Shown piece after piece: positions 10,256-22,028 of a DNA stretch of 23,111 bases. Position numbers and translations under genes: made by a program. Position 1 is the first letter of the stretch, and the number at the start of each line of letters is the position of its first letter. The notes beneath the pieces were generated by a model, which ran no database searches, was not told the DNA's origin, and saw only the letters and a list, made by a program, of their open reading frames with translations. Origin of the DNA: a virus; the IMG/VR virus record IMGVR_UViG_3300037349_000137, positions 1 through 23,111 of that record; one strand, written 5' to 3'.

Positions 10256-13024
10256 TTAGAACCGCCCGCCGGGGGCGGGGATCGACCGATGGCCGGCAAG
10301 CTGTAGGAGCGCCTCAGCGCGCTCATGACCAGCCGGGACGTGCTCGAGGATTGCGTCGACCGTGGTACCAGCATCCGACGATTTCGTAATCGCCGTCATG
10401 CCGGGGCCGACGACAGGCGACGGTAGCGGCTGCCTTTCGAGCATCTCCAGGCGCTTGGTCAACGCCGTAACGCTCGTGACAAGCTCGCCCTCCCGTTTGC
10501 GCATGGCAACAACATCACCAATGAGCGGTTGTGTGCGCGCAATCATTTTCGTGAGCGAGGTCAAAGCGACGTCGCGCTCCTCCGTAAGTGACTTGACCAC
10601 GGCCGTATTGGGTGTCCGTGCCGCCAGCGTCGACGCGAACTTTTCGAGAGCGTCAGCCAACCGCTTGCGGTCCCCGCGCTGGTCCGCCGACATACCCTTG
10701 GCAGTCGTCACGCTTGCGCGCAGCGCCTGCGCAATCGACATTGGCCACCGGGCAGCCTTGGCAGCGCGCTCGATAACCAACACCTCCGTTTCGCCGCCCC
10801 TGACCTCGACGTCGGTATCGTCGATGAGTTCCTCGGTCTCCTCGGCGACGATGGCAACCAACAGTTCCGCGCCTTGCGACAGCCACGCCTGGATTTTGGC
10901 CGGCAGGTCGCTCGACGTATCACCCTCGAAAAACTGCTCCATGGCGCTGTTTTGCTGCATGTAGCGAATTTCGTCGAGCATATGCGCCAGGCACGCCACG
11001 GCGTGCATGCCCTTAGCGGTGTCGCCGCCGAGCGCCTTCAGCAGCGCCGCACGCCGCACTGACTTCTCCGCCTTGGTCGCCTTGCCGCAATGGGGGCACT
11101 TGTCGGTATGCTCCTCGATTGCTTTGTCGCAAGACGCGCACTTCATATCGGACTTGGCCACTTTCTTGGTCGATCCTTCCCAGTCTTCCGGCAGCATGTC
11201 GGTTGCACCGAGGTCCTTGGCTCGAGCGATGATATGCGCCTTGGCCTTGGCCTTGTCCTTGGCGCGACCGTATGCGTGTACGGCGTCCTCCAGATCCGTT
11301 TTGGTCTCGATCGGAAAGGACCCATCGGGCAGCGCATGACCCTTGTCGGCAAGCGCCTGCCGCTCCTTGTCGGTAAAATCGCGCTTGCCAAACCAGCCGT
11401 AGTCGAACGTGCCATTAACGAACCCATCACCGGTCTTCACAAGAGCGGTCGCCGGCAACACCTTCTCCGACATGTTGCCGGTATGCGCCTCATAACCCGC
11501 CTTTTCTTTTTCGTGGTGACCAGCCATTTCACGATATCCATCCGCGATGGCGCCGTGGTGTGCAGCGGCGGCACGATGACCGTCTGCCTCATCCTTGGCT
11601 TTGGTGGCAACCTCATGCTCGCCGCTGGTGTGCGCCTCCATGGCGCGCCCCTCGGCAATCTTGGCATCTGACGTATGCTGATCGCGCACCGCATCATGTG
11701 CCGTCGCCCAATGGCGCGCTGCCTCCGCTTCCGCCGAATGGTCGACCACCGGCGGGTCATCGCCTTCCGCGTAGGGTCCGCCGCCAACCTTCTGCAGTAC
11801 CGGCCAGGACAGGGGGGATGACAACACAAGCGCCTTGACAGCCTTGTCCGACTTCGCCTCGCGCTCGTGGTGCGCTTTCAGCGCCTTGAACCGGTCCGCC
11901 ATCATGTGGTGACGCGCGGCAATGGCGCGGTGCGCCTTGGCGGCAGCCTCGTGCTTGTTGGCGCCCGCCTCGTCGCCAAGATCTCGCGCCTTCTTGGCGG
12001 ACGCCATGAGCGACGACGCGGCGGCGTCGTGCTTCTTGGCAAAGGCATCGTGGTCGGAGCCGCGCTTGGCGGCATCGTCCGCCGCCTGCGCATGGTCCAT
12101 ACCCTCGCTCTTCACCACACCGGACGCGAGCGCCGTGGAACTGTCGATCATAGCCAGCAGCGCCTCAGCCTGCTCCGCCGCGGCATGCGCCGCCGTCTTC
12201 GTCGTCATGTCAACGTGCTCCTCGTGCTGGGCAGCCAAGGCCGAGTATTGGGCTGCGTTCTGCCTGTGCTGCTCGGCAAGGCGCGTGCTGCCGTGCTCGA
12301 GCTGGCGGTGAATAGTCTCGGTTGTCGGGTCGCCGTCTTTTTGCGCGCGCTCGGCGATGCCGCGGTGACGGTCTGCCGCCTTAACAGCGCCTTCCGCCAT
12401 TTCCTGATGTCGTTCCGCCTCCGCTCGCGCATCCGCTGCCGCCTTGGTATGCGTCGACAACTTGCCGTCGGCAGAGCGCGGTTGCGCACGTTTCTCGAAG
12501 TCGGTCTGCATGCACTTGGAAGCTTCATCCTTGCCCGTGTGCTGGTGCGTGCGGTCAAAGCACGCCCACACCTGTACCGGCTGCGGCCACAACGCGCCTT
12601 CCGCGCGCTTGACAAGTTGGATGGTCGCTTCCGGATTTGCCGGCCGGTCGACAAGGCTGATCTCATGCAGATCGAGCGCCGTGATGATCGTACGGTCGTT
12701 GGGGTCGCGCGCCGTGACCTTGCCGCCGATCGAGAAGCCCTTGTAGACGCCCTTTTTGACCTTGAGCCAGGCTGTGTCGTCAACGACGTGCGCACCGAGC
12801 CACAACCCGTTGCCGTCCATAACAGCCTCTTGTGCCGTACCGACCGCCGAAGGCTGGTGCATTTCGCGGATGTTGGCGAAGCGCATGTAGTCGGGCAGCG
12901 CTCGCTCCAGCGCAGCGTGGCGCACAATCTCGCCCTGCTGGTCGCGTTTTTCCGTGGACGCGTAGCCAAAGACGAGGCGTTGCTCCTCGTCGATCTTCAT
13001 GATTGCGGCGTAGATGGGTATCAT
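10256..13024 (-). CDS. Fused prohead protease and scaffold, with zinc ribbon and DUF6582-like domain
   Basis: The 922-residue protein begins with a prohead protease domain (about 1-140). It has FGYASTEKRDQQGE, a likely catalytic histidine in REMHQPSAVG (His56) and a likely catalytic serine in EISLVDRPANPEA (Ser123). Three alanine- and histidine-rich helical blocks follow (about 190-285, 305-395, 425-515). Then come a DUF6582-like segment (about 535-610, KRDFTDKERQALADKGHALP), a four-cysteine zinc ribbon (Cys629, 632, 643, 646) and a helical C-terminus with a heptad-like stretch near 800-865. The fusion fits a self-cleaving scaffold encoded just before its capsid protein. The ATG has GAGGT seven bases upstream, formed in part by the previous gene's stop region. 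It is much longer than simple prohead proteases of about 200 residues. Confidence 0.88.
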   Translation of the reverse strand: MIPIYAAIMKIDEEQRLVFGYASTEKRDQQGEIVRHAALERALPDYMRFANIREMHQPSAVGTAQEAVMDGNGLWLGAHVVDDTAWLKVKKGVYKGFSIGGKVTARDPNDRTIITALDLHEISLVDRPANPEATIQLVKRAEGALWPQPVQVWACFDRTHQHTGKDEASKCMQTDFEKRAQPRSADGKLSTHTKAAADARAEAERHQEMAEGAVKAADRHRGIAERAQKDGDPTTETIHRQLEHGSTRLAEQHRQNAAQYSALAAQHEEHVDMTTKTAAHAAAEQAEALLAMIDSSTALASGVVKSEGMDHAQAADDAAKRGSDHDAFAKKHDAAASSLMASAKKARDLGDEAGANKHEAAAKAHRAIAARHHMMADRFKALKAHHEREAKSDKAVKALVLSSPLSWPVLQKVGGGPYAEGDDPPVVDHSAEAEAARHWATAHDAVRDQHTSDAKIAEGRAMEAHTSGEHEVATKAKDEADGHRAAAAHHGAIADGYREMAGHHEKEKAGYEAHTGNMSEKVLPATALVKTGDGFVNGTFDYGWFGKRDFTDKERQALADKGHALPDGSFPIETKTDLEDAVHAYGRAKDKAKAKAHIIARAKDLGATDMLPEDWEGSTKKVAKSDMKCASCDKAIEEHTDKCPHCGKATKAEKSVRRAALLKALGGDTAKGMHAVACLAHMLDEIRYMQQNSAMEQFFEGDTSSDLPAKIQAWLSQGAELLVAIVAEETEELIDDTDVEVRGGETEVLVIERAAKAARWPMSIAQALRASVTTAKGMSADQRGDRKRLADALEKFASTLAARTPNTAVVKSLTEERDVALTSLTKMIARTQPLIGDVVAMRKREGELVTSVTALTKRLEMLERQPLPSPVVGPGMTAITKSSDAGTTVDAILEHVPAGHERAEALLQLAGHRSIPAPGGRF

Positions 13025-13597: not shown

Positions 13598-15007
13598 CTA
13601 TGCCGCGCGCTCACACCCGCGGGGCAGGGTCAGCGGCATAGCAATAACTTCCCTCAGCCGTTCAAACACCGGCGCCCATTCGCCCGCGGTGTCCTGCTTA
13701 ATGAGTTGCATTGATGGGTACAGCGGCGTACGCGAGAGGTCTTTGCCCCAACGCCACCGCCAACACGGATCGACCGGGAGCAGTACAATTGTTGGCACGC
13801 CCAAAGCACCGGCGAGGTGCGCCACCGACGTATCCACAGACACGACAAGGTCGAGCGACTGTATCGCCACCGCCGTATCGGCAAAATCTTTGAACGTCGC
13901 GCCCCAATCAGGGACCAGCGCCCGCGCACCGGACGTTACAATCTCCTGCGCCGCCGGGCCGACCTGCAGCGATACCACATCGACGCCATTGATACCGGCG
14001 AGCTCGATAAACGGCCGTATCGACAGTGACCGGTGGATGGCTACCTCGAGACCTGACCGACCCGACTCCCATATGACCCCAACACGCATCCCGCCACATG
14101 GCGCCGGCTTGACCGTCGGCACTGCATCAGGTGCAAGGCGGAAATACGGGTCGGACGGCAGTGTCTCCACCGTCGCGCCAAGCTGCAGCGGCAGCGACAT
14201 CATCGACACGTGGTAGTCGATTGGCTCATCGAACGTGCTGACGTCGTGTGGGACGACCCTATCAACACACGGCATCCAACCAATCAACCGGCGCAGTTCG
14301 ACTGGCATGGCAACCAACAGTCGGCACCCAAGCGCCTTGGCCAACGGCAGATACCGAGCCCACATGAGGGTATCGCCGAAGCCTTGCTCATGGTGCACCA
14401 GAAGCGTCTTGCCGACGATATCCTGCCCCGTCCACTTGGTAGCCTGCACTTTCGAAGACGCGTGTGCCACGATATGACCGTTCCATCGTATCTCGTGCGC
14501 CTCGAGACCTTCTTTTAGCCTTCCAAGGTCAAGCAGCGCATAAGACCGGTCATACGGCAGGTTTGGATGCGGCGTGCCGTGGCTCAGCGCAATGCCGCGG
14601 TCAAACGCTGCCAGCGCCTCCTCATTGCGCCCAAGCGCACGCAGCAAAAGGCCCTTGTTGTGCCACAGCCCCGAAAAGTCCGGGACGATCGCCTCCGCCC
14701 GTTGAAACATCTCAAGCGCATCATCAAAACGGCGCGCACGCCAATACACGTTGCCGAGGTTGGTCTCGGCATACCCCGGCATGGCACCGGAGGCGATGAA
14801 ACGTAGACCAAGCGCAATCGCCGCCGCGTATTGCCGTGCGTTGACGCAGATAACAGACAGGTTGCACAGCGCACCGCATGTCGGATCAAGCTCCAGCGCC
14901 TTCTCAAAGCGCTGCCGCGCCTCCACATGCCTCCCCTTGGCATCGAGATTGGCGCCATCCTGACACAGCAACTTGGCGAGTGTCGCGGGCGGAATAGTGG
15001 CACTCAT
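13598..15007 (-). CDS. TPR-repeat glycosyltransferase (GT-B fold, GT9/OGT-like)
   Basis: The 469-residue protein has TPR repeats over about residues 10-175 (for example GRHVEARQRFEKALELDP, ARRFDDALEMFQRAEAIVP, GRNEEALAAFDRGIAL). A GT-B type transferase domain follows. Its motifs include LLVHHEQGFGDTLMWARYLP (about 202-221) and SLDLVVSVDTSVAHLAGALG (384-403), then VPTIVLLP and WRWRWG (416-421). The second is a nucleotide-sugar site motif of GT9 and TPR-linked transferases. Known relatives move a sugar to protein or lipopolysaccharide; the substrate here is not shown. Start ATG 15007 overlaps the preceding microprotein stop (ATGA), so it is co-translated with head genes. Modification of a virion protein is a reasonable inference. 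No signal peptide or membrane segment is seen. Confidence 0.88.
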   Translation of the reverse strand: MSATIPPATLAKLLCQDGANLDAKGRHVEARQRFEKALELDPTCGALCNLSVICVNARQYAAAIALGLRFIASGAMPGYAETNLGNVYWRARRFDDALEMFQRAEAIVPDFSGLWHNKGLLLRALGRNEEALAAFDRGIALSHGTPHPNLPYDRSYALLDLGRLKEGLEAHEIRWNGHIVAHASSKVQATKWTGQDIVGKTLLVHHEQGFGDTLMWARYLPLAKALGCRLLVAMPVELRRLIGWMPCVDRVVPHDVSTFDEPIDYHVSMMSLPLQLGATVETLPSDPYFRLAPDAVPTVKPAPCGGMRVGVIWESGRSGLEVAIHRSLSIRPFIELAGINGVDVVSLQVGPAAQEIVTSGARALVPDWGATFKDFADTAVAIQSLDLVVSVDTSVAHLAGALGVPTIVLLPVDPCWRWRWGKDLSRTPLYPSMQLIKQDTAGEWAPVFERLREVIAMPLTLPRGCERAA

Positions 15008-15192: not shown

Positions 15193-16104
15193 CTATGTCC
15201 CCGGCTTTACGCGCGCCTTGACGGCGCAGCGGCAGCGTGGATGGGCAGGGTACGTCATGTCCCCCGACGGAAAAGGTTCTTCAAGCGGTATCCAACCAGC
15301 GGCAGCATTGAGGAGACAAGTCTCCTCGACCTTACCATCCTCCGACGTGGTCCATGCTTTCTCCATTTGGAAGCCGGTCTTGGCTGCCATGGCGCGGAAC
15401 GACTCAAGAGCCCCCTGCCCATGTGCCATCGCCAGCTCGGCGCGCGCAATAAACGTCGCGCGCGTTTCACTAAAGAGCGGGCTGCCGGTCACGTCATCTT
15501 TGAGCGCCAACAGGCGCTCCTCGATTGTTGGAGCCTCCTCGCCTTCCGGCGCCGGCCCCAACGCATCCACGACAATCTGCTTGACCTTGTCGCGTGTCGT
15601 TTGCGTGATCGTCATCGACGCGTCCGGGTTCGGTACCAAATTGCCTTCCGCGTCGCGCCTCATGCCGATTAGCTCAGCCGCCCGTTGCTCAGCGTATTCA
15701 AGCGCATCTTGGTAAACCTGGTTGACCAAGGCGCTACGCTCGTCCACGCCAAGCTGTGCAATGGCGCCGTCGCCTGTCGTCATTTCGGTAACGGTCGACA
15801 CCACAGCATCTTCCGCGGCTTCCGCCATCGCCTCTTGCGCCGGCTCGACGATCACATCCCACCCATCAAACTCAATTTGGTCCGCCACCTGCTGCGCGGT
15901 AAACTCAATGACAGCATCGGTTGCCTGGTCCAGTTGCTCCGCGGTCATTGTACCCAATTGCGTATAGACCAACGCGGCAACCTGGTCCGCCATCGATGGC
16001 CCGAGTTCGTCAAACGACGTAGCGATCTCGGATGCCAAGCGCTGTTCGGCTGCCCGTACCTTGCTGCTGTCCTGCGTCGGTCCCTGATCGTCCTTCCGGA
16101 TCAC
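15193..16104 (-). CDS. Mu gpF-like head morphogenesis (minor head) protein
   Basis: The 303-residue protein has a long helical N-terminal part, rich in alanine and glutamate (about 15-200), then the Mu F-like domain. In that domain ETRATFIARAELAMAHGQG leads into W251, Cys263 in EETCLLN, and the end motif YPAHPRCRCAV (His288, Cys291, Cys293). These residues are the family hallmark. Such proteins sit at the portal vertex and may be ejected with DNA. The chosen start is GTG 16104, giving a 95-base overlap with the portal gene in another frame. It has only a weak upstream purine stretch. A later start such as Met38 would shorten the overlap but lose a helical part. The start is uncertain and the family call is firm. 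Confidence 0.9.
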   Translation of the reverse strand: MIRKDDQGPTQDSSKVRAAEQRLASEIATSFDELGPSMADQVAALVYTQLGTMTAEQLDQATDAVIEFTAQQVADQIEFDGWDVIVEPAQEAMAEAAEDAVVSTVTEMTTGDGAIAQLGVDERSALVNQVYQDALEYAEQRAAELIGMRRDAEGNLVPNPDASMTITQTTRDKVKQIVVDALGPAPEGEEAPTIEERLLALKDDVTGSPLFSETRATFIARAELAMAHGQGALESFRAMAAKTGFQMEKAWTTSEDGKVEETCLLNAAAGWIPLEEPFPSGDMTYPAHPRCRCAVKARVKPGT

Positions 16105-18121
16105 GACGCTGCCTAAGACGCTCGTGGATATCGCGGCGGCGAAAGGGTGTATCGACCGATTTGTCTACCTCCACCGGCACAACCTTACCCATGTCGTTTA
16201 TCGTCTGGCGCTCCTCGGCACCGAACACCAACACGCCATCAAACGGCTGCGGCTCCCACGTTTCCGGGTCACTGTCAATCGGCGGATCGGGCATCATGCC
16301 ATAGGCAATCGTCACATGCGGCATGTAGCTCACGAAGTCCCAAGAGCACCCTTGCGCGCACAGGTCAACCCATCGTGCCGATAGTTCCGCATTTTCGAAC
16401 ATCAGTACAATGGCACCTTTCGGACCCAGCGGCGATACCATGCGATAGCCGCCATCTGCCAACACCAACGGCGTCGCGTCATCGCTGATAGTGTCCCAGT
16501 CGACGGGTGCACGGCTGTGCGCGATCGTGACGTGCATCTCGTCCCACGGCACGACGTTCCCAAAGCCCTGCGCCTCCGCCCACGCCACAAGCTCATGTGC
16601 ATTGATAACCGGCCGGCTGATGTAAAGCGGGATTGGCGCAGACTTGGCGAGCTTTTCCGCTGCCGTCAGCGTTGGCTCAAGCGGGGGCGCCGTCGGCTTG
16701 TTGTCGATTGCCGCGGGATTGGCGCCGTCGTTTTTGCCGCCGGGCACCGCGCCAGGCGCAATGATCTGTGGTTCCAACGGCACAAAGCCGGCGGGCGTCA
16801 ACACCATCGGCTTGGATGCTGCGCCGCCGAGTTTGTCGAGGCCCAAATTATCACGCACCTCGTCAATCGTCATGGCGCCAATCTTGGCATACCCGGTATT
16901 GATGACCACAGCCTTCGCCGGGTCAAACTCCGCGTCGCTTTCCCACGAGAACTCAAGGTCAGGCGCGTCGAAGTCCTCGCGGATAATCTTGTCCATCAGC
17001 CGCTTGGTCCACATCAAGGTAGGTTGCAGCCCTTCCTCGGCTGCCACCTCCTGCGCGGTACCGGCCGACGCGCGGTTCATTTGTTTCACAGCCCATTGCG
17101 GGCTGATGCTAAAAGCAAAGCAAACGACACGCGCCAGCCACTCATCGAAATCATCCTTGAGCGGCGGCTGCTTCATCGGCTGCCACTTGCTGTCGTGTGG
17201 CACCCACCACGCTTTACGTCGTTGCTGAACGTTGCCGGCAAAGATCGCATCCCATGCGTTTTGCACAGCCATGATCTGTTCAGGCGTCGAATTGGCACCC
17301 GCCGTTAGAAAGCCATCCGGGATATTGCCATCCACGAAATAGCCTTGTTGGCTGCGCATGCGCTGAATGCCAATCTCGGCCCATGTGATGATCTGCTCGA
17401 CCGGACCATACCCATAGATGTGATCCGCCCGCGTATTTTTGACGGCATAGATAAGCTCGCCCGCCGCGAACGTCGTGTAGTCGCTCGCCGGCACGCCTTT
17501 AAGCACCTGCTGATATGCGGGCGACGGCGGCAGCGGCAAGCGACCCTTGCTGTCAATCAACGGCTTGATGGTTGCTGCGTCAACCTGCTGCAGCGCATAC
17601 AACGCACCGCCGCGGTTGCGCTGTTTGTAGAGCGCCACACCATCATAGACGAAATGTTGATCGAGCACCGCACGCAGCCACTGCGACCAATCAAGGCGCT
17701 TGTCGGGCGACGCAAAGAACGCGGTAATCTCCTTGATCTTACCCGTACGCGGACTGCTTGCCGGGCGCTTGCCCTTGCCCGCTTCACGCGGCAGGATCGT
17801 CCAATTCTGCGCCTCCACCTGATCCTTGCGCGTCTCGATAACAAGGCGCAGCAAGGGCCAATTTTGGCTTAGATACTTCAGCAACTGGAAGCTAACCGCT
17901 TCCGTTGCGCGCGGGATATAGTTGATGTTAAGCGCAGTTTGATAATCGAACTGCCGCCCACGTACATCGTCCTGCGGCGCCATCGGCTTAAGCGGCTGCT
18001 GCGGACCAAACCACGTACCAGCGTCGACGCCCGCGATGGTGACACGACCCGTGGAGGGATCGCGTCGCGTCAACGCCGCGAGCGTCAACCTCTGAAGAAT
18101 GTTTGGACCCTTACCGGCCAT
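16010..18121 (-). CDS. Portal protein fused to an Acb1-like 2H phosphoesterase domain
   Basis: The 703-residue product has a portal domain over about 60-450 (INYIPRATEAVSFQLLKYLS, LRLVIETRKDQVEAQNWTI, VYDGVALY, LPPSPAYQQVL, AGELIYAVKNTRADHIYGYGP, SISPQWAVKQMNRAS). A proline-rich link (451-494) leads to a domain at about 495-650 with two HxT motifs, His530-x-Thr532 and His602-x-Thr604, 72 apart. PLYISRPVINAHELVAWA and VPWDEMHVTIAHS match the anti-CBASS protein Acb1 (T4 57B type), which cuts cyclic oligonucleotide signals. The portal is the DNA gate at one capsid vertex. The ATG has no good ribosome-binding site and overlaps a 30-codon leader frame. The last 95 bases overlap the Mu F-like gene. 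Whether the domain is active is inferred from intact motifs. Confidence 0.92.
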   Translation of the reverse strand: MAGKGPNILQRLTLAALTRRDPSTGRVTIAGVDAGTWFGPQQPLKPMAPQDDVRGRQFDYQTALNINYIPRATEAVSFQLLKYLSQNWPLLRLVIETRKDQVEAQNWTILPREAGKGKRPASSPRTGKIKEITAFFASPDKRLDWSQWLRAVLDQHFVYDGVALYKQRNRGGALYALQQVDAATIKPLIDSKGRLPLPPSPAYQQVLKGVPASDYTTFAAGELIYAVKNTRADHIYGYGPVEQIITWAEIGIQRMRSQQGYFVDGNIPDGFLTAGANSTPEQIMAVQNAWDAIFAGNVQQRRKAWWVPHDSKWQPMKQPPLKDDFDEWLARVVCFAFSISPQWAVKQMNRASAGTAQEVAAEEGLQPTLMWTKRLMDKIIREDFDAPDLEFSWESDAEFDPAKAVVINTGYAKIGAMTIDEVRDNLGLDKLGGAASKPMVLTPAGFVPLEPQIIAPGAVPGGKNDGANPAAIDNKPTAPPLEPTLTAAEKLAKSAPIPLYISRPVINAHELVAWAEAQGFGNVVPWDEMHVTIAHSRAPVDWDTISDDATPLVLADGGYRMVSPLGPKGAIVLMFENAELSARWVDLCAQGCSWDFVSYMPHVTIAYGMMPDPPIDSDPETWEPQPFDGVLVFGAEERQTINDMGKVVPVEVDKSVDTPFRRRDIHERLRQRRDPEGRSGTDAGQQQGTGSRTALGIRDRYVV

Positions 18122-19190: not shown

Positions 19191-19265
19191 TGGTGCCACC
19201 TGATGGTATCGAACCATCGACCTCCAGTTTACAAAACTGATGCTCTACCTCTGAGCTAAGATGGC
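19191..19265 (-). tRNA. tRNA-Thr (anticodon TGT), CCA encoded
   Basis: The minus strand folds as a standard tRNA. The 7-pair acceptor stem is GCCATCT with AGGTGGC (one G-U). The D arm is GCTC/GAGC, the anticodon stem TCAGT/ACTGG has loop TTTGTAA, the variable loop is 5 bases (AGGTC), and the T arm GATGG/CCATC has loop TTCGATA. Then come discriminator A and encoded CCA. Anticodon TGT reads ACA threonine codons. The 5' end lies inside terL: tRNA bases 8-10 (T, A, G at 19258-19256) are the terL stop codon. It would be cut out of the structural transcript by RNase P and 3' processing. Its likely use is to support translation of threonine-rich virion proteins downstream. Confidence 0.95.
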
Positions 19266-20875
19266 GCATCGACACACCCATGCGATCGCATTGTTTGCTC
19301 ATCCAGCCGGTCGACCGCGGCAATAATGCCGTCAACATCGGCGTCATATCGAATGCCGGTTCGTGGCGCAAAGCACATATGCGCGCGTGGGGCGCGCATG
19401 CGTAGGGGTCCAGGGGGCGGTGCCACGGCAGCAGGGTCAGCAATCGGGGTGCGCACCACAGGCGCCTTGGCGGCGCCCGGTGATACGCCCAAACGGCTGG
19501 CAAGGCGTGCATAGTGGTCCGCCCACATCTGCCCGTCCCCGTCCTGCACCATCAGTTCCGTAAATCCCCACACCATCGCATCAAGCCGGTCAGGGGAGCC
19601 GTCTTTCTTGCGGTCGTAATCGGACGCAAATGTGCACAGTTGATCTTCCAGATCGGCAAGCGATCCAACATGGTGGACGCGTCCTTGCTCATACAATGCC
19701 GCGACCGGCTCCGCCCGTATGACCTTACCGCGCGACGCATGTACGGCTTTATATGCGACATTCACATCAACCATTTTGACCGTGTTGCCGACCATCTCAC
19801 CGCCGTTGTTCACCTCCGCGATGATACGGTCCGCCTGATGATCGTGGTACGCCTTAACAGCAACCCGCGCCCACTCCGTCGGCGCATACCGTCCCGACAG
19901 ATCATCCAACACATACCCATGGTCATCCACACCGAGCCCGCACACCATGATACCGGTCTCGTCCGAATCCTCCTCGCTTGACGCGGCAGGGTCAATCGCC
20001 ACGACGATACGCCGCATGCGAGGCAGCGGCTTGGCAACCGGGTGGCGCGCGGCGTCGATCCACTTGCGCTCCCAAAGCGCGCCGGGGACGTCTTCCAGTA
20101 GCTCACCTTCAAGCTCCTGCCGGCCCTTGCGCGATCCCTCGTAGCGCCGGATAAGCGTCGAGAAAAAAGATGCTGCTAGATTGGAGCGATTTTCGTACGT
20201 CTTGCCGCGCGTCACCACGGTGGATTTTGTCGACATGAGATCGCGCAGCAGCGCAATTGGCTTCGGCGTCGTCGTGATGCAGACCCGCGGGTCCTTACCG
20301 ACGCGCAAGCCGAACTGTAACTGATCCCACGTCTCTTGCCCGTACCGCCACTTACAAAGCTCGTCACACCATGCCGCATCGTGTTCCGGCCCACGTAGCT
20401 GCTCAGGCTCAACGGCATTGTAGAGCGTCGCAATCGCGCCGTTTGGCCATGTCAAACGCCGCTTGGACGGCTCGTATTTTGGCCGGAAGTCTTTCGCGTG
20501 CACCTGCAGGATGCCGCTACCCGCTGTCGGATCGCTTGGTGGCTTACCATCACCCACCATCACATCACGCGCATCCGCGGCCGTCTCAGCTACGAGCGCC
20601 ATACTCCGGTACTTGCCGCGTGCCAGGGGGGTACTGCCGCACATATTGGCGCGCACCCATTCAGATCCAGTTCGGGTTTTGCCGAAGCCACGTCCGGCGA
20701 GCACAAGCCAGGCTGTCCAAGCCCCCGGCGGCTGTATCTGCTTGGGGCGACCCCAAAACAGCCAATCATATTCAAGTGCCGCCGCTTCCGCTGTCGTCAG
20801 GTCCGCCAGTACCTTCAGCCGGTCCGCTTCGGGTAAGGAGGCCAGCAATTCGGCTTGCGATGCGTTCTCGTGCAT
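19256..20875 (-). CDS. Terminase large subunit
   Basis: The 539-residue ATPase-nuclease motor has a Walker A motif GRGFGKT (61-67, in LVLAGRGFGKTRTG). A Walker B-type AAWCDEL follows, with Asp171 and Glu172, and a coupling-like CITTTPKP near 199. The C-terminal nuclease has VVAIDPAAS (Asp295), IIAEVNNGG (Glu354) and SPDRLDAMVWG (Asp429, Asp432). It cuts concatemers and pumps DNA through the portal. The start ATG has GAGGTGG five bases before it and overlaps the small-subunit gene by 104 bases in another frame. The last four codons and the TAG stop overlap the tRNA. The C-terminal tail after residue 465 (proline-rich, then RTGIRYDADVDG) is an addition beyond the nuclease core. Confidence 0.96.
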   Translation of the reverse strand: MHENASQAELLASLPEADRLKVLADLTTAEAAALEYDWLFWGRPKQIQPPGAWTAWLVLAGRGFGKTRTGSEWVRANMCGSTPLARGKYRSMALVAETAADARDVMVGDGKPPSDPTAGSGILQVHAKDFRPKYEPSKRRLTWPNGAIATLYNAVEPEQLRGPEHDAAWCDELCKWRYGQETWDQLQFGLRVGKDPRVCITTTPKPIALLRDLMSTKSTVVTRGKTYENRSNLAASFFSTLIRRYEGSRKGRQELEGELLEDVPGALWERKWIDAARHPVAKPLPRMRRIVVAIDPAASSEEDSDETGIMVCGLGVDDHGYVLDDLSGRYAPTEWARVAVKAYHDHQADRIIAEVNNGGEMVGNTVKMVDVNVAYKAVHASRGKVIRAEPVAALYEQGRVHHVGSLADLEDQLCTFASDYDRKKDGSPDRLDAMVWGFTELMVQDGDGQMWADHYARLASRLGVSPGAAKAPVVRTPIADPAAVAPPPGPLRMRAPRAHMCFAPRTGIRYDADVDGIIAAVDRLDEQTMRSHGCVDAPS

Positions 20876-21440
20876 CCACCACCTCGATAGGTCCGCCGTC
20901 GGGACCGCTTACCTGCACGGAGCTTTTATTTACGAACATTCCGATGTGCTTGCCCAGATCGACAAGAGCTCCCTTCTTGTCGTGCAGCACAATCTTGAGC
21001 GACTTGACGTCGCGGGCTGTAGGTCCGCGTCCATCTTTGTACTCCTCGATCGTCACAGATGACAGCGCAGCCATCTCGTCACGCGTGGCATCCGTCAGGT
21101 GGAGGTATGGGCTTCCATCATCGGCAAAGCGAACAAAATCAGCCATGTTGCTGAATCCGATACGCGCAAGCTCTTCTTTGATCCTGGTTTCGTTGACGAC
21201 GTATCGTTCCATCGTCTTGGCAGTAGCCGCGGCAAGATGAGCATCAGCCGCTTCGATTATCGGCTTTATCTTGTAATGAGTCAGAAGGTGGCTGGCAGCT
21301 TGGGCAACGCCAAGCGGGGCTGCCGTCGTGTTGTACGCTGCGCGATATGCCGCCGACCCATTCCGACCATTCGTCAAATAAGCTACAACGAACGCGCGCT
21401 GCTTCTTTGTGAGTTGAGATTGGCGACCGGACCCTGCCAC
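20772..21440 (-). CDS. Terminase small subunit (Terminase_2 type)
   Basis: The 222-residue product begins with SQLTKKQRAFVVAYLTNGRN and GSAAYRAAYN, followed by AQAASHLLTHYKI. This is the helix-turn-helix N-terminus typical of Terminase_2 small subunits, which bind the packaging site and form a ring that brings DNA to the large subunit. A central helical part (EELARIGFSNMADFVRFADD, LSSVTIEEYKDG, LKIVLHDKKGALVDLGKHIGMF) is also standard. The end is disordered and glycine-rich. The start is GTG 21440, three bases after the NusG-like stop (21444). A further overlap of 104 bases with terL suggests coupling. The call is secure from pattern and from the large subunit next to it. Confidence 0.92.
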   Translation of the reverse strand: MAGSGRQSQLTKKQRAFVVAYLTNGRNGSAAYRAAYNTTAAPLGVAQAASHLLTHYKIKPIIEAADAHLAAATAKTMERYVVNETRIKEELARIGFSNMADFVRFADDGSPYLHLTDATRDEMAALSSVTIEEYKDGRGPTARDVKSLKIVLHDKKGALVDLGKHIGMFVNKSSVQVSGPDGGPIEVVDARERIASRIAGLLTRSGPAEGTGGPDDSGSGGT

Positions 21441-21443
21441 AGC

Positions 21444-22028
21444 TCACGCAAAAACCTCGACCTGCGACGCATCAAGCGTCACCCGGTGTGGCCTCCCAAA
21501 CATGGACAGCAGGAGACCGACGCGCTCCTTGGTTGACCACTCGCATTCGCCGATACACGACGAAAAGGGGCCGGACAGCACCCGCGCCTGCTCCCCTGCC
21601 TTCACAACCAAGCGCATCACTTCCAGCACGTCGCCGAAAAACCCCCGCGCATCCCGTGCGCGCAAAACATCAACAACACCATCCGCCAGCGGCAAGGGGC
21701 GCTCCCCGGCGCCAAGCAACCCGGTACCATTACGTCGCTTGATGCCACGGGTGCCGTTGATGACCTCCCACCGGTCATGCGCCAGATCGAAACGAACGAA
21801 CAGGTACCCCGGAAAAATGGACTCCTTCACCTCAACCCGGCGACCACGCGTCACCCGGCAAAACGTGTGCACCGGATGATAGGTCTCAAACGCCTGCAGG
21901 CTTAGATTTTCATCCGCCACGCTTTCACGGCGGTGTTCCGTCTCAGCCACGTACCAGCGCTTTGCCAAAGGTTTCACCCCCCAAAATAGCCACCGCACAG
22001 CGCGATCTCGCGCCGTCGTACCCAACAA
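21444..22028 (-). CDS. NusG-like transcription elongation/antitermination factor
   Basis: The 194-residue protein has an NGN-type N-terminal domain. It carries KRWYVAETEHRRES, then ETYHPVHTFCRVTRGRR, then the hallmark VKESIFPGYLFVRFDL and WEVINGTRGIKR. A KOW domain follows at about 140-194 (VVKAGEQARVLSGPF, GECEW, RVGLLLSMFGRPHRVTLD, VEVF). NusG-type factors bind RNA polymerase at the beta' clamp and change pausing and termination. A specialised paralogue such as RfaH or LoaP often works on the operon next to its gene. Here that is the packaging and head operon, with an intrinsic terminator at 18215. The start is TTG 22028; GTG 21977 is an alternative that drops 17 leading residues. No ribosome-binding site decides between them. 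Confidence 0.9.
   Translation of the reverse strand: MLGTTARDRAVRWLFWGVKPLAKRWYVAETEHRRESVADENLSLQAFETYHPVHTFCRVTRGRRVEVKESIFPGYLFVRFDLAHDRWEVINGTRGIKRRNGTGLLGAGERPLPLADGVVDVLRARDARGFFGDVLEVMRLVVKAGEQARVLSGPFSSCIGECEWSTKERVGLLLSMFGRPHRVTLDASQVEVFA

Follow-up and report, generated by a model that had tools for sequence, protein, structure and literature searches.

The window analysed here, the whole stretch of 23,111 nucleotides of viral DNA that forms IMG/VR record IMGVR_UViG_3300037349_000137, encodes a portal protein that continues, in one open frame, into an Acb1-type 2H phosphoesterase domain; the distinguishing feature is the portal type that bears the Acb1 domain, as portals of this type are nearly always without it. 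We consider it probable (roughly 0.6) that the product is a bifunctional portal, in which an active Acb1-type 2H phosphodiesterase, made late together with the portal, degrades CBASS signals in the cytosol. Comparison with other Acb1 sequences indicates that the domain is a mobile module whose partners are mostly head proteins.

The features of the fusion gene and of the gene that follows it are listed below by position in the window; catalytic and base-stacking residues were assigned by alignment to T4 Acb1, and the base-stacking roles are those described for T4 (PMC9117128).

16010..18121, minus strand: portal-Acb1 fusion gene, 703 aa, a single open frame with PF04860 and PF23474 both above the Pfam cut-offs.
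16745..18043, minus strand: portal domain, residues about 27-459 (PF04860, phrog_2662, the profile of window-type portals and a fold search).
16628..16744, minus strand: Pro/Ala-rich linker, residues 460-498, of low confidence and unstructured in the full-length model.
16211..16627, minus strand: Acb1-type 2H phosphoesterase domain, residues 499-637, modelled as 488-657 (PF23474, AlphaFold2, Foldseek).
16622..16624, minus strand: Y500, equivalent to base-stacking Y12 of T4 Acb1.
16526..16534, minus strand: catalytic motif 1, H530-V-T532, equivalent to T4 H44/T46.
16334..16336, minus strand: F596, equivalent to base-stacking F107 of T4 Acb1.
16310..16318, minus strand: catalytic motif 2, H602-V-T604, equivalent to T4 H113/T115.
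16010..16150, minus strand: C-terminal tail after the Acb1 domain, residues 658-703 and the stop codon, mostly overlapping the start of the next gene.
15193..16104, minus strand: MuF-like head protein, a separate open reading frame with a GTG start (PF04233, E 3.3e-7).

The frame is free of stops across portal, linker and Acb1 domain. PF04860 matches residues 133-426 (E 6.6e-16), and the fusion protein matches the portal profile phrog_2662 (E 5.8e-63), which covers portal and MuF together. A full-length model was usable for the portal part only, the Acb1 part having almost no alignment depth there; in it the portal part was fairly confident, and the top matches in a fold search were portals (phage 812, HK97 and gene transfer agent, GTA) at E 1.6e-17 and weaker. 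Residues 658-703 had no family match. The MuF gene overlaps the end of the portal gene by 95 bases in a different frame, an arrangement that could allow translational coupling, a frameshift product being less likely. Gene order fits a portal, which lies between the terminase genes (small subunit 20772-21440, large subunit 19256-20875) and the head genes, the latter including MuF and an S78 protease (10256-13024), all on the minus strand. A tRNA-Thr (TGT) gene sits between the terminase and portal genes (19191-19265, minus strand). A protein with a NusG N-terminal domain (21444-22028, minus strand; E 1.6e-16), perhaps a phage antiterminator, adjoins the gene for the terminase small subunit, and a TPR protein with a weak glycosyltransferase-9 match lies in the head gene cluster (13598-15007, minus strand).

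The sequence-only reading of this DNA had proposed an Acb1-like 2H domain on the portal, and profile, PDB sequence and structural evidence agree with it. Pfam places PF23474 (Acb1) at residues 499-637 with E 7.1e-24 and 84.6 bits against a cut-off of 27. A phmmer search of PDB sequences returned the Pam3 portal 8hds (E 8.6e-14) and FBB1 Acb1 7t26 (E 4.8e-8). In PHROGs, residues 509-615 match phrog_755, labelled RNA ligase; the record of T4 57B, which we take to be the T4 Acb1 gene, bears the same old label. The structure prediction that had been proposed as a check was carried out on residues 488-657 with an alignment of 56 relatives, and AlphaFold2 returned a model with mean pLDDT 90.5 and pTM 0.82. 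Its best Foldseek match in the PDB was FBB1 Acb1 7t26 (E 8.5e-9, TM 0.78 by target length), 7t27 being second, followed by a phosphodiesterase of Burkholderia phage BCSR5 and then LigT (best E 1.2e-4). The window domain is thus predicted to have the 2H fold, with Acb1 crystal structures clearly the nearest. A plain LigT or 2'-5' RNA ligase domain was rejected, as those Pfam models gave no match at E 0.01 and the structural matches were weaker; chance HxT motifs were ruled out by the profile, the structure and conservation across the family. The Pam3 portal is the nearest protein by sequence to the window Acb1 domain (profile E 4.1e-48), yet its structure 8hds was not among the Foldseek matches listed, and its Acb1 domain may for this reason be unmodelled in the coordinates and possibly mobile.

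The two HxT motifs, read earlier as His530/Thr532 and His602/Thr604, lie exactly at those residues, and 16172-16639 corresponds to residues 495-650. In T4 Acb1, Y12, W74, F107 and W147 stack bases, W147 lying in the lid, and E141 contacts adenine (PMC9117128). The window domain resembles T4 and FBB1 Acb1 (PDB 7t26, 7t27) in predicted fold, in the HxT/HxT tetrad and in the equivalents of Tyr12 and Phe107, and it keeps 30 of 35 near-invariant family positions. It differs from T4 Acb1, a free protein, in having Q639 in place of E141, S563 in place of W74 (a position that varies across the family) and no counterpart of the lid residue W147. Specificity or rate may differ in consequence of these three changes, and the loss of the lid Trp and Glu141 makes altered specificity a real possibility.

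Since the scans used motif patterns, each motif was scored only in loci found via the other. All 41 loci identified by motif 2 alone had HxT at motif 1; of 79 identified by motif 1 alone, 78 had HxT or HxS at motif 2. Among the loci listed, which held 162 distinct Acb1 domains, H44, T46 and H113 were each kept in 161, and T115 was Thr in 139 and Ser in 23. The exception for motif 2 was L107, in which the second catalytic His is replaced by Asn, the sole such loss among these domains. Both HxT motifs thus appear nearly universal in the Acb1 family as sampled.

One alternative, which we think unlikely, is a domain that is active as a 2H phosphoesterase but whose main substrate is not the CBASS signal. 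The substrate would be RNA, cut by an Usb1-like RNase, or the 2',3'-cyclic ends of RNA, or another defence nucleotide. The substitution of Gln for the adenine-contacting Glu, the missing lid Trp and the matches to LigT-type 2H structures speak for it, as does the RNase role that Iyer et al. (2017) proposed first when they described such 2H domains on MuF or portal; they added the degradation of nucleotide-activated defence nucleotides as a possibility (PMC5512222). Set against this, the LigT and 2'-5' RNA ligase models fail at a threshold that Acb1 passes at E 7e-24, Acb1 crystal structures are clearly the nearest folds, and Hobbs et al. (2022), who demonstrated the activity of T4 Acb1, tested nine further acb1 genes, all of which cut 3',3'-cGAMP and cAAA (PMC9117128).

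We consider it improbable that the domain is catalytically dead, or a structural extension that is retained because it serves portal assembly or contacts with DNA. The losses of the lid Trp and Glu141, the long branch of the window domain, the missing second His in L107 and the fact that most portals of the window type do without Acb1 would all fit such an extension. However, both HxT motifs are intact in the window, a structural role does not demand the tetrad, and the motifs are kept across the family at the rates given above. Selection argues in the same direction. Because the window domain has no close kin, dN/dS was taken on its relatives, namely fused portals of the PF06381 or PF06074 family compared in 21 non-overlapping pairs; for these relatives, rather than for the window domain itself, the median was 0.094 in the Acb1 part, against 0.071 in the portal part. 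Related fused Acb1 copies are under purifying selection, and relics would drift toward 1. Since fused copies also keep both HxT motifs, the class of domain to which this one belongs is not a relic, and the earlier suggestion of a structural relic does not hold for that class. In the L175/L173 pair, synonymous divergence was unequal (dS 0.93 in the portal part and 0.12 in the Acb1 part), and the two parts also differ in L136 and L157. Such strong differences in some pairs are as expected if the domain was exchanged separately by recombination, which they suggest.

The distribution of Acb1 was examined with alignment scans, which were required, as a single-sequence scan of viral contigs with the domain gave no matches. 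The sample comprised the best 80 of 560 viral-contig loci and 79 genome loci, with loci of named phages added. Among the loci listed, Acb1 was found on PF06381 portals (126 ORFs), on Mu-type PF06074 portals (15), on HK97-type PF04860 portals (4), on window-type portals (2: the window and L088), on S78 prohead proteases (6) and on DUF2213 proteins (2), and 14 ORFs were free, truncated or other. Sampling favoured sequences similar to the query alignment, and these counts show the range of partners and not their abundance. The other ORFs include an ADP-ribosyltransferase-Acb1 protein (L077) and two giant multidomain proteins (L084, L102). Of 385 genomes drawn from the class to which genome G001 belongs, 2 had an Acb1 match above the cut-off.

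The Acb1 domain of the window is 26-45% identical to domains on other partners, and no significant similarity was seen between its portal part and those of the other three families. Acb1 parts that align, joined to portal parts that are dissimilar, point to a domain that has moved between head proteins. A single ancestral portal-Acb1 fusion for all portal families is disfavoured on the same grounds and because nearly all window-type portals are without Acb1. In the tree, support was obtained for a clade of HK97-type domains and for one of PF06074 domains, from which only L030 is missing; the deep branches are not resolved, and the window domain lies on a branch of 1.24 compared with a median of 0.43. 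Grouping all prohead-protease fusions as one clade was rejected (AU p 0.008). Two proteins that public databases label as prohead proteases, DSS3P8 gp129 (L011:3992-4444, 150 aa) and ZHS_4 (L008:2116-2715, 199 aa), match Acb1 and had no protease match, and are not fusions; the ZHS_4 Acb1 gene sits between the terminase and portal genes. In L070:2688-5204, Acb1 is followed by a linker with the motif HPRDEDGKF and then by a tail that looks ADP-ribosyltransferase-like by eye and had no Pfam match. Extra partial copies of the portal gene lie in tandem downstream of an intact portal gene in L012:8568-13330, L014, L022 and L013:9140-10885.

Within the lineage of the window's own portal the fusion is rare: among about 93 loci with window-type portals that were screened, only the window and L088 (IMGVR_UViG_3300035696_000787) carry Acb1 on the portal. 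L088 has the same portal type, with Acb1 likewise positioned behind the portal. It differs in that its portal part is 39% identical to that of the window, a further 230 aa follow Acb1 within the ORF, and its Acb1 groups with the protease-fused domain of L107 rather than with that of the window; a test of a single origin for the window and L088 fusions did not reject it (AU p 0.27). A single ORF covers portal and MuF domain in Strzyga and in many other relatives. Portal tails in the lineage range from 2 to 677 residues and hold, in individual cases, a phage-type inorganic pyrophosphatase (L187:7342-9372, L189:7303-8595), an AHH nuclease (L212:7312-7917) or MuF with an intein-like region (L244:4310-6115). 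L107, a prophage with a window-type portal, carries its Acb1 in a 1054-aa frame that fuses NUDIX, Acb1 and an XkdF-type protease (L107:4344-7505).

The view that portal-Acb1 fusion is a known architecture is borne out by earlier work: 2H domains fused to MuF or portal, and also a pyrophosphatase-portal fusion, appear in Iyer et al. (2017) on phage polyvalent proteins (PMC5512222). The window fusion is therefore not the first of its kind. The window protein belongs among polyvalent proteins as that text delimits them, by a 2H domain on the portal or MuF of a portal-terminase phage (PMC5512222). Going by the same text, those fusions share with the window the 2H domain on the portal; the text predates the Acb1 name and assays and names no portal type in the passage concerned, and the window domain is on a portal of PF04860/phrog_2662 type, with MuF in a separate overlapping gene. 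PF06381 portals (Pseudanabaena phage Pam3 8hds, phiPSA1, Rhizobium phages) also carry a C-terminal Acb1, in several cases with a minor capsid or head morphogenesis gene coming next as in the window, whereas their portal part belongs to another family and bears no significant similarity to that of the window. In the literature covered, which was partial, no paper was found that takes up Acb1-bearing portals or prohead proteases as a topic.

In the bifunctional portal that we favour, the portal subunit (residues about 27-459) would function normally, with the Acb1 enzyme (about 490-655) tethered by a flexible linker. The protein would be made late in infection, and free subunits, new portal rings or procapsids in the cytosol would hydrolyse CBASS cyclic di- and trinucleotides; with the signal cleared, the cell would not abort the infection. 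After DNA packaging the Acb1 domains would lie shut in around the portal crown, their task being over. The elements of this account that we infer are expression late in infection, catalysis, a CBASS signal as substrate, and action from the portal before assembly or from the procapsid. Portals are present in few copies, and the dose of enzyme may be limited by this.

The C-termini of portals generally point into the head, and portals remain with the empty head outside the cell and are not injected, so that action from the first moment of infection, considered in the sequence-only reading, is less likely. Activity of T4 Acb1 starts about 15 min into infection, which corresponds to the late onset of CBASS (PMC9117128), and this late timing makes a late cytosolic portal a plausible carrier. 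Delivery with the virion, in which the Acb1 on the portal would gain access or exposure to the cytosol as the DNA enters and act at the start, is very improbable, given where portals stay and when CBASS and T4 Acb1 act, although polyvalent and MuF fusions are thought by Iyer et al. to be packaged and injected (PMC5512222) and giant multidomain proteins, one of them with an ADP-ribosyltransferase domain, are further carriers of Acb1. By analogy with T4, such delivery would be unnecessary, as new portal should be forming in the cytosol by the time it is needed.

The prohead protease, one of the partner types of Acb1, is reported to interact with a CBASS sensor (PMC12409349, citing Richmond-Buccola 2024). 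We tentatively propose, as a possibility, that the head proteins of tailed phages serve as permanent attachment sites for counter-defence enzymes, the portal C-terminus and the prohead protease foremost among them. Acb1 would have been joined to them time and again, the antidote thereby being produced at the same time as those head components whose assembly triggers CBASS. In the window lineage, a pyrophosphatase, an AHH nuclease or MuF is found at this same site.

Should the domain be active, counter-defence would be a second task of an essential structural protein, how much CBASS inhibition occurs and when would depend on head assembly, and the gene could not simply be lost. Screens for anti-CBASS genes that are limited to small free-standing genes would then miss many fusions to portals, proteases and DUF2213 proteins. 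With Acb1 present on unrelated head proteins, among them the prohead protease with its reported CBASS sensor interaction, the link between head assembly and CBASS can be tested directly.
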